Assembly: GCF_017301335.1 (NCBI RefSeq)
Contig: NZ_CP071247.1
Coordinates: forward strand, 2,604,001-2,668,000
Direction: 5' to 3'
DNA from: Marinobacter salinisoli
GTDB taxonomy: Bacteria > Pseudomonadota > Gammaproteobacteria > Pseudomonadales > Oleiphilaceae
Length of the DNA stretch: 64,000 nt
Positions within the stretch are counted from its first letter, which is position 1; every line of letters begins with the position of its first letter. The notes below the pieces were generated by a model. That model had not been told where the DNA came from. It ran no database searches and saw nothing but the letters and a program-made list of their open reading frames with translations. Of the stretch, positions 15,903 through 18,388 are shown in pieces. The position numbers were made by a program, and so were the translations under genes.

Positions 15903-16031
15903 GCCAGTTACTGGCGTGGGGTAGTGGTCGTGCCAGAATTTGGCGCCAGTTTTCGTGGGTGCCACAAAGTGGCATGGGTGTAAGCTTGTGCCACGAACTG
16001 GCCCCGCTATAATGGCGCGCCAAAACCTGGC
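15903..16031. repeat. five GCCA-N5-TGGC palindromes at exact 29-bp period
   Basis: Copies lie at 15903-15915, 15932-15944, 15961-15973, 15990-16002 and 16019-16031. Each is GCCA-N5-TGGC, with N5 = GTTAC, GAATT, CAAAG, CGAAC and AAACC; start-to-start spacing is 29 bp four times. The 16-bp spacers are not conserved, so the array is a set of phased binding sites rather than a simple tandem duplication. It covers the promoter of the small HTH gene and ends 21 bp before its start codon. It is probably an operator or iteron-like array for a dimeric DNA-binding protein, most simply the HTH product itself. Confidence 0.85.
15986..16013 (+). promoter_or_regulatory. sigma-70 promoter inside the palindrome array
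   Basis: TATAAT at 16008-16013 is a perfect -10 box lying between the fourth and fifth palindromes. A weak -35, TTGTGC at 15986-15991, overlaps the fourth copy with a 16-bp spacer. Transcription would start near 16020, inside the fifth copy, so occupancy of the last two sites should block initiation. Confidence 0.65.
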
Positions 16032-16052
16032 ACCTCCCGCCCGCAGAGCCCT

Positions 16053-16358
16053 ATGTATCGCGATTTCAAAACCACGCTTGAGCTTGTTGTTACCGTTCTG
16101 GATAACAAAAGCCTGACCTCCGAACAGTTAAGAAAGCGCTTCGGCAACATGCCGGACCGAACCTTCAAGCGACATATGGCGACAGCCCGAAAGCATGGCG
16201 CCCAGATGGAATGCGCTACCGATGCCAGAGGGCGTTATGTCTGGTCCTGCCGTAACAAAGTGATGATCGAGCAACGGGTTCGGACATGGCTGCTGTTCGA
16301 ACAGGAACGGACGCTGGTCGGGGATTCCCAGCTGGATCTGTTGCATCAGGCGCTTTGA
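16053..16358 (+). CDS. small helix-turn-helix protein, probable autoregulator
   Basis: A 101-residue protein with no family I recognise firmly. The N-terminal half reads as a winged or DeoR-type HTH (ELVVTVLDNKSLTSEQLRKR, then FGNMPDRTFKRHMATARKHG as the recognition region); the basic CRNKVMIEQRVRTW segment and a helical C-terminus could dimerise it. It stands immediately behind five phased palindromes that span its promoter, the usual arrangement for a repressor of its own gene. The nuclease gene follows 127 bp later on the same strand and may be under the same control. Confidence 0.6.
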   Translation: MYRDFKTTLELVVTVLDNKSLTSEQLRKRFGNMPDRTFKRHMATARKHGAQMECATDARGRYVWSCRNKVMIEQRVRTWLLFEQERTLVGDSQLDLLHQAL

Positions 16359-16460
16359 ACGGTAGTTGCGTCAGCGCTCTTGCGCTCCACGCACGCAGGC
16401 GGCGGCTTGGTGCTCTTCGAAATCCGCTAAAGTTAAAGCTTAGTCTGGCGTTTTGAGACA

Positions 16461-16477
16461 CTCCTTTTCAAAGGAGG
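16461..16477 (+). promoter_or_regulatory. hairpin sequestering the nuclease ribosome-binding site
   Basis: CTCCTT-TTCA-AAGGAG is a perfect inverted repeat whose 3' arm is the Shine-Dalgarno sequence (AAGGAGG at 16471-16477) of the nuclease gene starting at 16486. In mRNA the ribosome-binding site would be paired, limiting translation unless the stem melts or is bound. No T tract follows, so it is not a terminator. Confidence 0.6.
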
Positions 16478-16485
16478 GCTGGGTT

Positions 16486-17214
16486 ATGAATGATCCTTTC
16501 CAAATGCAACCAGAATTGCGTTACGGCGCGCCGGTGTGCGACGAGATACTAACCGGCCGGCACTTCACCATTGGTTACTCCTATTATTTTCGCCAAGCCA
16601 AGTGGACGCTGGAAATCATCAATAGAAACGAGTATCTGCTGACCGAGACGGAACGATTCGACAACTTCAGGGCGGATACCCGGGTGCCGACCCGGTTCCG
16701 GGCAGGGCTGAGTGCCTATAAAGGTAGCGGCTATGATCGCGGGCACCTGGTGGCCAGTGCGAATCAGGATATTCAGGAGATTCAGAACAGCGAAACCTTC
16801 CTGTTATCCAATATGTCTCCCCAACAGCCAGGATTTAACCGGCATATTTGGCGGCGACTTGAATTTGCCATTCGGGATCTGAATAACCGCGATGACATTC
16901 TCGAAACCTACGTGCTGACCGCGCCGGTGTTCTATTTTGGTATCCCCATCGAAACCATCGGCTCGGCGGATGATGACTACGGCATTTATATCCCGGTGCC
17001 GCATGGTTTTATCAAAAGCGTTCTCGCTGAAGACCGGCGCGGGAAACTCTCGCTCTGGACGTTTGAGATGAAGAACGAATCGCTGCAGGGTGGCCTGGGC
17101 GAGTACCTGGTCAGCACCTACGACGCGGAGCAGATGATCGGAGGGCGGTTCTGGGATCGGGTAAGTGGTGAGGATTTGCACCAGCAAAAGAAAAAACCCC
17201 GCCCGATGTGGTAG
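16486..17214 (+). CDS. DNA/RNA non-specific endonuclease (DRGH family)
   Basis: A 242-residue protein starting at ATG 16486. The NUC fold is complete: YDRGHLVASAN, whose His is the general base, and SNMSPQQPGFNRHIWRRLE, which supplies the metal-binding Asn and the follow-up helix, then ETYVLTAPVFY and a C-terminal YDAEQMIGGRFWDRV. Characterised relatives such as Serratia nuclease and EndoG are secreted or compartmentalised; this one has no signal peptide or membrane segment, so it should act in the cytoplasm or be released by lysis or a dedicated secretion route. Its ribosome-binding site is buried in a hairpin. Confidence 0.85.
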   Translation: MNDPFQMQPELRYGAPVCDEILTGRHFTIGYSYYFRQAKWTLEIINRNEYLLTETERFDNFRADTRVPTRFRAGLSAYKGSGYDRGHLVASANQDIQEIQNSETFLLSNMSPQQPGFNRHIWRRLEFAIRDLNNRDDILETYVLTAPVFYFGIPIETIGSADDDYGIYIPVPHGFIKSVLAEDRRGKLSLWTFEMKNESLQGGLGEYLVSTYDAEQMIGGRFWDRVSGEDLHQQKKKPRPMW

Positions 17215-17262: not shown

Positions 17263-17859
17263 TCAGGTCTCCACCAGGGTGCTGGCCCAGGCTGGCAGCG
17301 TTGGTGTGATTTGATCCCAGCGATGGGTGCGATACGCGGCAACCAGTTGGTAGGGGTGTTCGGCGCTGGAGTTATCGAATAAATACACCTCATCGCACAG
17401 TGGAGTTGCGGCCTGGATGTGCTTCAGGGTCCTCGGAATCCGGCTGCGGACTTTGTCTTCGGGAACGGAATGGCCGCCTTCGCGGATGCGTTGACTGATT
17501 CGCGCAAGATTAAGATCGGCATGTTCGACATGAAACGCGAACACCTTGATGACGTAGCCATGGGCTTTTGCCTTGGCGATGAAGTCGACCTTTGACGGGT
17601 GGGAGAAGACCGTCTCGTAGCAGAACGATTGGCCGCAGGTGAGAATGCGATCTCGCTCGCGCGCCGCCAATAGCGCGGCTTCATAACTGTTCGCCTCCGG
17701 ATTGTCTGGAAAAAAACGGGCCGCGATCTGATCGGCATTCACCAGAGGCAAGCCGTGTTTGGCCAGGAACTGACGGTAGAACGTCGATTTGCCGGATCCA
17801 TTCCCGCCAACCAGTACCCACAGTTCAGGCGGCGTCGTCCTTTTCAACGAAGGCTCCAT
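17263..17859 (-). CDS. zeta-toxin-like P-loop kinase
   Basis: A 198-residue protein from ATG 17859 (an upstream TTG at 17874 is possible). Walker A GGNGSGKST lies at residues 18-26, followed by LPLVNADQIAARFFPDNPE, CYETVFSHPSKVDFIAKAKAHGY, FHVEHADLNLARISQRIREGGHSVPEDKV and YLFDNSS. This is the zeta-toxin/AAA_33 organisation; zeta toxins phosphorylate UDP-N-acetylglucosamine and block wall synthesis, but chromosomal relatives may use other substrates. The start overlaps the upstream ParD-like gene by 35 bases, the usual antitoxin-toxin order. Confidence 0.8.
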   Translation of the reverse strand: MEPSLKRTTPPELWVLVGGNGSGKSTFYRQFLAKHGLPLVNADQIAARFFPDNPEANSYEAALLAARERDRILTCGQSFCYETVFSHPSKVDFIAKAKAHGYVIKVFAFHVEHADLNLARISQRIREGGHSVPEDKVRSRIPRTLKHIQAATPLCDEVYLFDNSSAEHPYQLVAAYRTHRWDQITPTLPAWASTLVET

Positions 17860-18229
17860 TTTCGAAGTAACCAACTCGTACGGTTCCGCTGGGCTGTATC
17901 TGCTCCAGATAGCCTGGATGGCTGAGCGAGGCCTGATAGATGGTGCCGGATGCGGTCAGTCGCCGGGTCAGCTCGCCGGATTGCCCCAGCTGTGCCACGT
18001 CAGCGAGCACCTGGTCAGAGGAGGGTGGCTGCACACGGACGCGCTCAGGCTTGAGCTCCAGTAATCCCTGGCTGAGTGCCACAAGATCCTCCTGGGACAG
18101 CGAGTCAGCGACGATCTGGCCGATTTCGGCCCAGTATTGAATTTGCTGGGGTGTCGAGCGCCGGGCTGCCTTGCCAATGGCGGCGGCTTCTTTCAATAGT
18201 TTGGCGTCGAGCCGGATGGGTGAGGGCAT
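17825..18229 (-). CDS. ParD-like antitoxin
   Basis: A 134-residue protein from ATG 18229 (longer in-frame starts read through the promoter repeats). The N-terminal half (PIRLDAKLLKEAAAIGKAARRS, TPQQIQYWAEIGQIVADSL) is the ribbon-helix-helix-like region of ParD_like antitoxins; the C-terminal half (LTASGTIYQASLSHPGYLEQIQPSG) would bind and neutralise the kinase. Co-translated with the toxin. Autoregulation is suggested by tandem repeats over the promoter. Confidence 0.75.
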   Translation of the reverse strand: MPSPIRLDAKLLKEAAAIGKAARRSTPQQIQYWAEIGQIVADSLSQEDLVALSQGLLELKPERVRVQPPSSDQVLADVAQLGQSGELTRRLTASGTIYQASLSHPGYLEQIQPSGTVRVGYFENGAFVEKDDAA

Positions 18230-18262
18230 GGTTGGTACCTCAGGTTTGGCGATTACTGTTCG

Positions 18263-18320
18263 ATTGTAGTAAAAAGCAGCAAATGTAGCAAAATGCAGCA
18301 AATGTAGCAAAATGCAGCAA
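18263..18320 (-). promoter_or_regulatory. antitoxin promoter with tandem operator repeats
   Basis: On the minus strand TTGCTA (18286-18291) and TACAAT (18263-18268) form a promoter with a 17-bp spacer. A 19-bp unit, GCAGCAAATGTAGCAAAAT on the plus strand, occurs twice head to tail at 18276-18294 and 18295-18313 with a third partial copy to 18320, giving five GC(T/A)GC or GCTAC half-sites every 9-10 bp. They overlap and extend upstream of the -35, as expected for cooperative ParD-type binding. Confidence 0.65.
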
Positions 18321-18388
18321 GCTTTATTGGAGTGGCCGTTCGCCGTGCCTGAGACCAAGAAGTTAAGCCTGTCGGACACATGCAGTCA

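Follow-up and report, generated by a model that had tools for sequence, protein, structure and literature searches.

Small DNA-binding proteins with an array of sites around their own promoter, as at the locus described here, are found among the partition adaptors TubR/tubC and ParR/parC, whose sites are short direct iterons, while those considered here are 13-bp palindromes 29 bp apart. Restriction-modification controller (C) proteins and multi-operator toxin-antitoxin autoregulators, as represented in part of their literature, are likewise small autoregulators with more than one operator and presumed cooperativity. Among the WYL regulators, BrxR recognises inverted repeats of 10-11 bp that have a 5-bp spacer, and it bends the DNA and acts as a repressor of its own promoter, according to the part of the report that deals with its sites (PMC9122601), and the sites of CapW overlap its -10, according to the corresponding part of a second report (PMC9122588).

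The locus that we analysed lies in a 64-kb stretch of Marinobacter salinisoli DNA (the window) and combines a gene for a 101-residue protein with operator-like palindromes. As far as those partial accounts go, it resembles the BrxR case in that the half-sites of its predicted operators are also 5 bp apart and lie in the -35/-10 spacer at 7/7 loci, and the CapW case in that operators lie at the promoter, those of CapW overlapping its -10. There is also a weak sequence likeness to both over the winged-helix part, where 11 of 13 family members match the PADLOC WYL model at E up to 1, the best at 0.0006. By contrast, at the loci compared here the predicted operators number four to eight and mostly keep to a 29-bp lattice, against the one or two described in those parts of the BrxR and CapW reports; no defence genes were recognised beside the 101-residue gene, whereas BrxR and CapW belong to phage-defence loci; and the family is seen only in Marinobacter where a source is named (four of the 16 protein matches, all four Marinobacter). 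Unlike the TubR and ParR systems, the locus has no recognised motor gene and the window's copy sits on chromosome-size DNA, and unlike those of C proteins and toxin-antitoxin autoregulators, the carriers have no common partner toxin or enzyme, and the operators are more numerous and strictly phased, as judged from part of that literature. The best matches in the open-licence PubMed Central literature included no description of the 101-residue family or of a 29-bp operator lattice. The features of the window's locus are as follows.

15903-15915, no strand assigned: operator-like palindrome 1, GCCAGTTACTGGC
15932-15944, no strand assigned: operator-like palindrome 2, GCCAGAATTTGGC
15961-15973, no strand assigned: operator-like palindrome 3, GCCACAAAGTGGC
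15986-15991, + strand: -35 element TTGTGC, overlapping palindrome 4; TTG in 7/7 loci
15990-16002, no strand assigned: operator-like palindrome 4, GCCACGAACTGGC, occupying the -35/-10 spacer
16008-16013, + strand: -10 element TATAAT
16019-16031, no strand assigned: operator-like palindrome 5, GCCAAAACCTGGC, at the expected transcription start
16053-16358, + strand: gene for the 101-residue probable winged-helix regulator, a WYL-type winged helix-turn-helix without the WYL domain; QLDLL at residues 93-97
16486-17214, + strand: DNA/RNA non-specific endonuclease (PF01223), 242 residues from ATG, judged to lie outside the system

A palindrome array phased at 29 bp

A first-pass annotation of this DNA had described five GCCA-N5-TGGC palindromes at steps of exactly 29 bp. 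All five were re-found, at 15903, 15932, 15961, 15990 and 16019, with 4/4 intervals exact, and the array ends 21 bp before the gene, as had been noted, copy five finishing at 16031 and the ATG standing at 16053. Exact matches to GCCA-N5-TGGC number seven in the window, two of them outside the array, as compared with a mean of 2.24 and a maximum of 6 in 100 shuffles of the 64 kb. The 400 bp upstream of the gene hold five exact sites (mean 0.02 and maximum 1 in 1000 shuffles) and, when a site is defined by at least seven of the eight core bases, four pairs at a lag of 29 bp, a number that none of 1000 shuffles reached at any lag from 13 to 100. Exact pairs with 29-bp spacing occur in the window's own genome at the array locus only.

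The spacers had been called unrelated, which holds for the mid-spacer, unconserved over 37 sites from seven loci, but not for the flanks, where GT before the palindrome and A-T/C-G-G after it are weakly preferred; the full motif over these sites is approximately GTGCCA-N5-TGGCAYGG. We rejected an RNA element, as the array lies mostly upstream of the promoter and a search of Rfam gave no match at E up to 1. Strand folding of the array scored a z of -4.65, as palindromes must.

The promoter had been placed between copies four and five, where TATAAT was indeed confirmed at 16008-16013. At all seven loci exactly one palindrome starts 18 bp before the start of TATAAT, and this promoter palindrome follows a TTG, the two hexamers standing 16 nt apart (7/7 loci). 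A T four bases before the palindrome, which TTG requires, is found in 7/7 promoter copies as opposed to 8/30 other copies. A generic promoter scan called no promoter at 15986-16013, since the -35 hexamer is poor: TTGTGC agrees with TTGACA at only three of six positions.

Conservation of the array among seven loci

The 101-residue gene was found in seven of 124 Marinobacter genomes, that of the window and those of six relatives, which were compared together with their flanks: M. daepoensis (L006), M. mobilis (L007), M. nauticus (L008), a metagenome-assembled genome (L009, from G126, 72% complete), Marinobacter sp. F4216 (L010) and M. zhejiangensis (L011). GCCA-N5-TGGC-like sites lie upstream of the gene in all seven carriers, 37 sites in total, and 24 of the 30 consecutive intervals between them are exactly 29 bp, the remaining six being 16, 57, 78, 79, 80 and 86 bp. 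This set omits two out-of-phase seven-of-eight matches (L006 at -361 and L007 at -162) and includes one in-phase six-of-eight copy (L011 at -34), without which 23 of 29 intervals are 29 bp. In each of the seven loci, the number of lag-29 pairs was reached by 0/1000 shuffles. With the upstream DNA compared, the 29-bp spacing without conserved spacers, on which the first-pass annotation had built its case, is retained at 7/7 homologous loci.

Apart from the promoter copy, there are one to four upstream copies and one to three in the leader, depending on the locus, and the phasing of the upstream and leader groups across the promoter differs between loci. As the interval is 29 bp inside groups but the gap between groups is variable, the phase within a group is fixed and the distance between groups is free. 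The half-site cores outlast the spacers between them: core positions are identical at 39/40 between M. daepoensis and M. nauticus and at 35/39 between M. nauticus and L009, against 90/169 and 123/170 for the other positions, and the corresponding values are 31/38 against 85/147 for the window and F4216 and 32/40 against 68/124 for M. mobilis and M. zhejiangensis, two pairs whose alignments are partly out of register. The weakest array is that of F4216, with two of five copies exact. Neighbourhoods, spacers and copy number differ among the seven loci while the sites persist.

A relaxed pair pattern was found in 45 of the 124 Marinobacter genomes, and two or more relaxed pairs close together, judged from the places listed for these genomes, in 6/7 carriers and 0/117 non-carriers; the seventh carrier, F4216, has one relaxed pair and copies too degenerate for the pattern. 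This co-occurrence of array and gene fits a dedicated operator array. The weak family identity of the small protein would also suit a reading in which a different, unlinked regulator binds the array and the small gene is merely its target, but we regard this as quite improbable, given that the clusters of relaxed pairs are absent from the 117 non-carriers and found only upstream of this gene, and that single sites are not enriched in carriers. Outside the arrays, exact-core single sites (TGCCA-N5-TGGCA) number 3-11 in the seven carriers, after subtraction of their array copies, and 5-13 in 14 non-carriers hand-chosen from the 117. As single sites, counted with exact cores only, are not more frequent in carriers, a chromosomal regulon was rejected; a further target could have escaped such exact-core counting.

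Distribution, neighbourhoods and the adjacent nuclease

A search of 5.8 billion proteins returned 16 matches to the 101-residue protein including itself, two being fragments, and repeating the search with a profile of 13 members brought no further family members. Across 390 genomes of the order, from 142 genera, with up to 12 candidates scored per genome, the only match was in the window's own genome; this sample holds at least 16 Marinobacter, and the other carriers are absent among those listed. The window's copy lies on a 3.7-Mb single contig and those of the relatives on contigs of 0.06-1.2 Mb. Pairwise dN/dS was finite for 16 of 21 values, at 0.04-0.13 with dS saturated in nearly all, and was 0.058 for M. 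nauticus and L009, the one unsaturated pair; on these values the gene is evidently under purifying selection.

The seven loci fall into three neighbourhood groups, namely the window with F4216, M. daepoensis with M. nauticus and L009, and M. mobilis with M. zhejiangensis. The genes beside the regulator in the other five carriers, which from their translations we take to be, for example, ccoG-like and Nudix or fdhD-like, are unrelated to the window's neighbours. These groups match three parts of an rpoB tree built from six of the seven carriers (G126 gave no rpoB match), 22 hand-chosen Marinobacter non-carriers and one hand-chosen outgroup, in which the window and F4216 are sisters (support 100), M. 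mobilis and M. zhejiangensis are sisters (100), and M. daepoensis and M. nauticus share a clade (97) that also holds four non-carriers. The regulator gene tree agrees weakly with rpoB, with support of 98 for M. nauticus/L009, 84 for M. mobilis/M. zhejiangensis, and 64 and 56 elsewhere. Between M. nauticus and L009 the DNA match runs from about -147, just upstream of the promoter copy, to the stop codon, and the adjacent DNA is without match on both sides (the right flank of L009 is only 0.7 kb). The pattern is compatible with two histories: the gene passed between lineages long ago and was then inherited vertically, or it is ancient and has repeatedly been lost and moved. M. mobilis has, about 0.6 kb downstream of its regulator, a gene (L007:10917-12218) that we take to be transposase-like, of an IS1380-like kind, and that might have helped to relocate the regulator. 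In the same neighbourhood group a conserved protein of 112-127 residues, 60% identical, is encoded downstream of the regulator (L007:10436-10819 and L011:10496-10834; two of seven loci).

The next gene in the window is, as the first-pass annotation had it, a nuclease with a DRGH motif (Endonuclease_NS, PF01223, E 4e-35) and, to judge by its N-terminus, probably no signal peptide; that annotation had imagined a damage- or phage-responsive effector module in which the HTH protein silences itself and the nuclease until triggered. The two genes lie side by side on one strand in the window and in F4216, and WYL-type regulators often stand at defence loci, according to part of one report (PMC9122601). 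The proposal did not survive the comparison of relatives, and we consider it very unlikely. Nuclease matches occur in 3 of 124 genomes, one of them weak (35%), and the true copies are those of the window and F4216, the two carriers that share a neighbourhood; the F4216 copy (L010:10531-11150) is broken by an internal deletion while its regulator and array are intact. Linkage of the nuclease to the HTH gene in relatives had been set beforehand as the check, and no nuclease match was found in the other five of the seven carriers (one of which, G126, is 72% complete); these five lie in the two other neighbourhoods. The nuclease has no PADLOC match, and no exact palindrome lies between the regulator and nuclease genes. 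To judge from these genomes, the nuclease is apparently a passenger beside the regulator.

The cassette is self-contained and patchy (7/124 genomes), and its three neighbourhoods, unrelated to each other, correspond to three parts of the rpoB tree, as might be expected if it served immunity or as a decoy, the protein repressing or titrating a phage or plasmid that enters the cell and shares these operators. The viral contigs do not bear this out, and we think such a role quite unlikely: stretches with exact pairs at 29 bp number 26, not above the controls at 28 bp (41) and 30 bp (34), no run of three palindromes at 29 bp was found in them, and no protein relative was found in the collections of viral contigs, phages and plasmids. 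With neither protein relatives nor an excess of 29-bp pairs in viral contigs, a phage or plasmid origin or target is unsupported. One lookalike of a phased array in a viral contig (L114:1064-1223) was discarded as a low-complexity 14-bp tandem repeat, CAGCCAGGCGCTGG.

The protein and its probable mode of action

The first-pass annotation had called the small gene an HTH gene. The 101-residue reading frame stands, and a weak PADLOC WYL match speaks for the assignment (E 0.0037, residues 8-63 on model positions 6-58 of 229, which is the N-terminal, DNA-binding part of the model), but the window's protein has no Pfam match. For the family, Pfam, PHROGs, NCBIfam and the PDB gave no significant match, only scattered weak ones, the best being Xre-like-HTH in Pfam (2/13 members, E 0.034) and a PHROG of unknown function (5/13 members, E 0.0054). 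Unlike BrxR and CapW, the protein has neither the WYL ligand-binding domain nor WCX, with 101 residues in all and no Pfam WYL match, and without a WYL domain it is by definition not a WYL regulator. Profile-profile alignment (hhalign) with seven WYL N-termini from relatives was in the expected register and scored 12.2, within the range of 40 column-shuffled controls (mean 11.7, maximum 20.9), and a second WYL group of 11 sequences gave a 13-column profile match only. WYL kinship of the family is not proven by these sequence comparisons; the operator geometry agrees with it. We conclude, by analogy, that the protein probably acts like the DNA-binding half of a WYL regulator.

In our view the protein probably acts as a repressor at its own promoter, occupying the operator that separates the -35 and -10 elements, and the outer copies would make this occupancy cooperative. 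The unit would consist of one gene and its own control region. A minimal winged-helix protein of the kind found at the N-termini of WYL regulators would bind the GTGCCA-N5-TGGCAT inverted repeats as a dimer, the occupied promoter operator would block RNA polymerase, and the 29-bp lattice would give cooperative binding, so that expression of the gene would be kept low and within narrow limits. With 10.5 bp to the turn, a 29-bp step spans 2.76 turns; neighbouring dimers are therefore expected off one face, turned by about a quarter turn, and would form a helical or bent complex rather than a flat row. Several points count against such an autorepressor: the 29-bp step is not the one classically seen in cooperative repressors, a regulator confined to its own promoter would be unusual, the family match is weak, the F4216 array is degenerate, the DNA match between M. 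nauticus and L009 begins no further out than just upstream of the promoter copy, and the promoter is not called by the generic scan.

Two features remain strange, namely a regulator with no visible target or partner and an invariant QLDLL near its C-terminus (13/13 members). In the parts of two reports that touch on it, the clamp-binding consensus is QL[S/D]LF (PMC12309361), and the clamp-binding motif of transposases is almost always C-terminal (PMC4549789). QLDLL is one residue off this consensus, with a final L in place of F, and since residues elsewhere in the C-terminal region vary about as little, we treat the motif as a lead, not as evidence. It is conceivable, though we hold it to be decidedly improbable, that a lattice-bound helical complex docks on the replication clamp via QLDLL, which would make the locus a single-gene element of the chromosome, expressed and acting in dependence on fork passage and not on other target genes.

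Regularly spaced sites about the promoter of a small gene, probably for a winged-helix protein, also bring to mind TubR/tubC and iteron systems, and on this likeness the array could be a centromere- or iteron-like site at which the protein organises, segregates or licenses DNA, autoregulation being a side function as for the small adaptors of plasmid partition or replication. This is unlikely: no ParA, TubZ, Rep or relaxase gene was recognised adjacent to the gene at the seven loci, mostly by reading translations (family-library searches of flanking genes covered the window's genes), the plasmid and phage collections gave no match, the window's copy lies on the 3.7-Mb contig, and the C-terminal invariance extends beyond QLDLL. 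The locus offers a small example, open to experiment, of an operator lattice whose strict spacing is under selection while the DNA between the sites drifts. It raises the questions why 29 bp, or 2.76 helical turns, is held so exactly, what structure a sensor-less winged-helix protein can form on it, and for what reason bacteria maintain, by purifying selection, a regulator that has no visible target but itself.

Other genes near the locus include one for a DUF2914 protein, among its neighbours in the window, and, at 17263-18379 on the - strand, one for a Zeta-toxin/AAA_33-like kinase of 203 residues (PF06414, E 3.2e-9; PF13671, E 3.9e-10), overlapped by an upstream ParD-like gene (PF11903, E 5.3e-8). 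By their family matches these last two look like a toxin-antitoxin pair. Upstream of one possible ATG of the ParD-like gene there is a 19-bp tandem repeat of 2.9 copies (TGTAGCAAAATGCAGCAAA, 18265-18320), possibly the operator of that gene.
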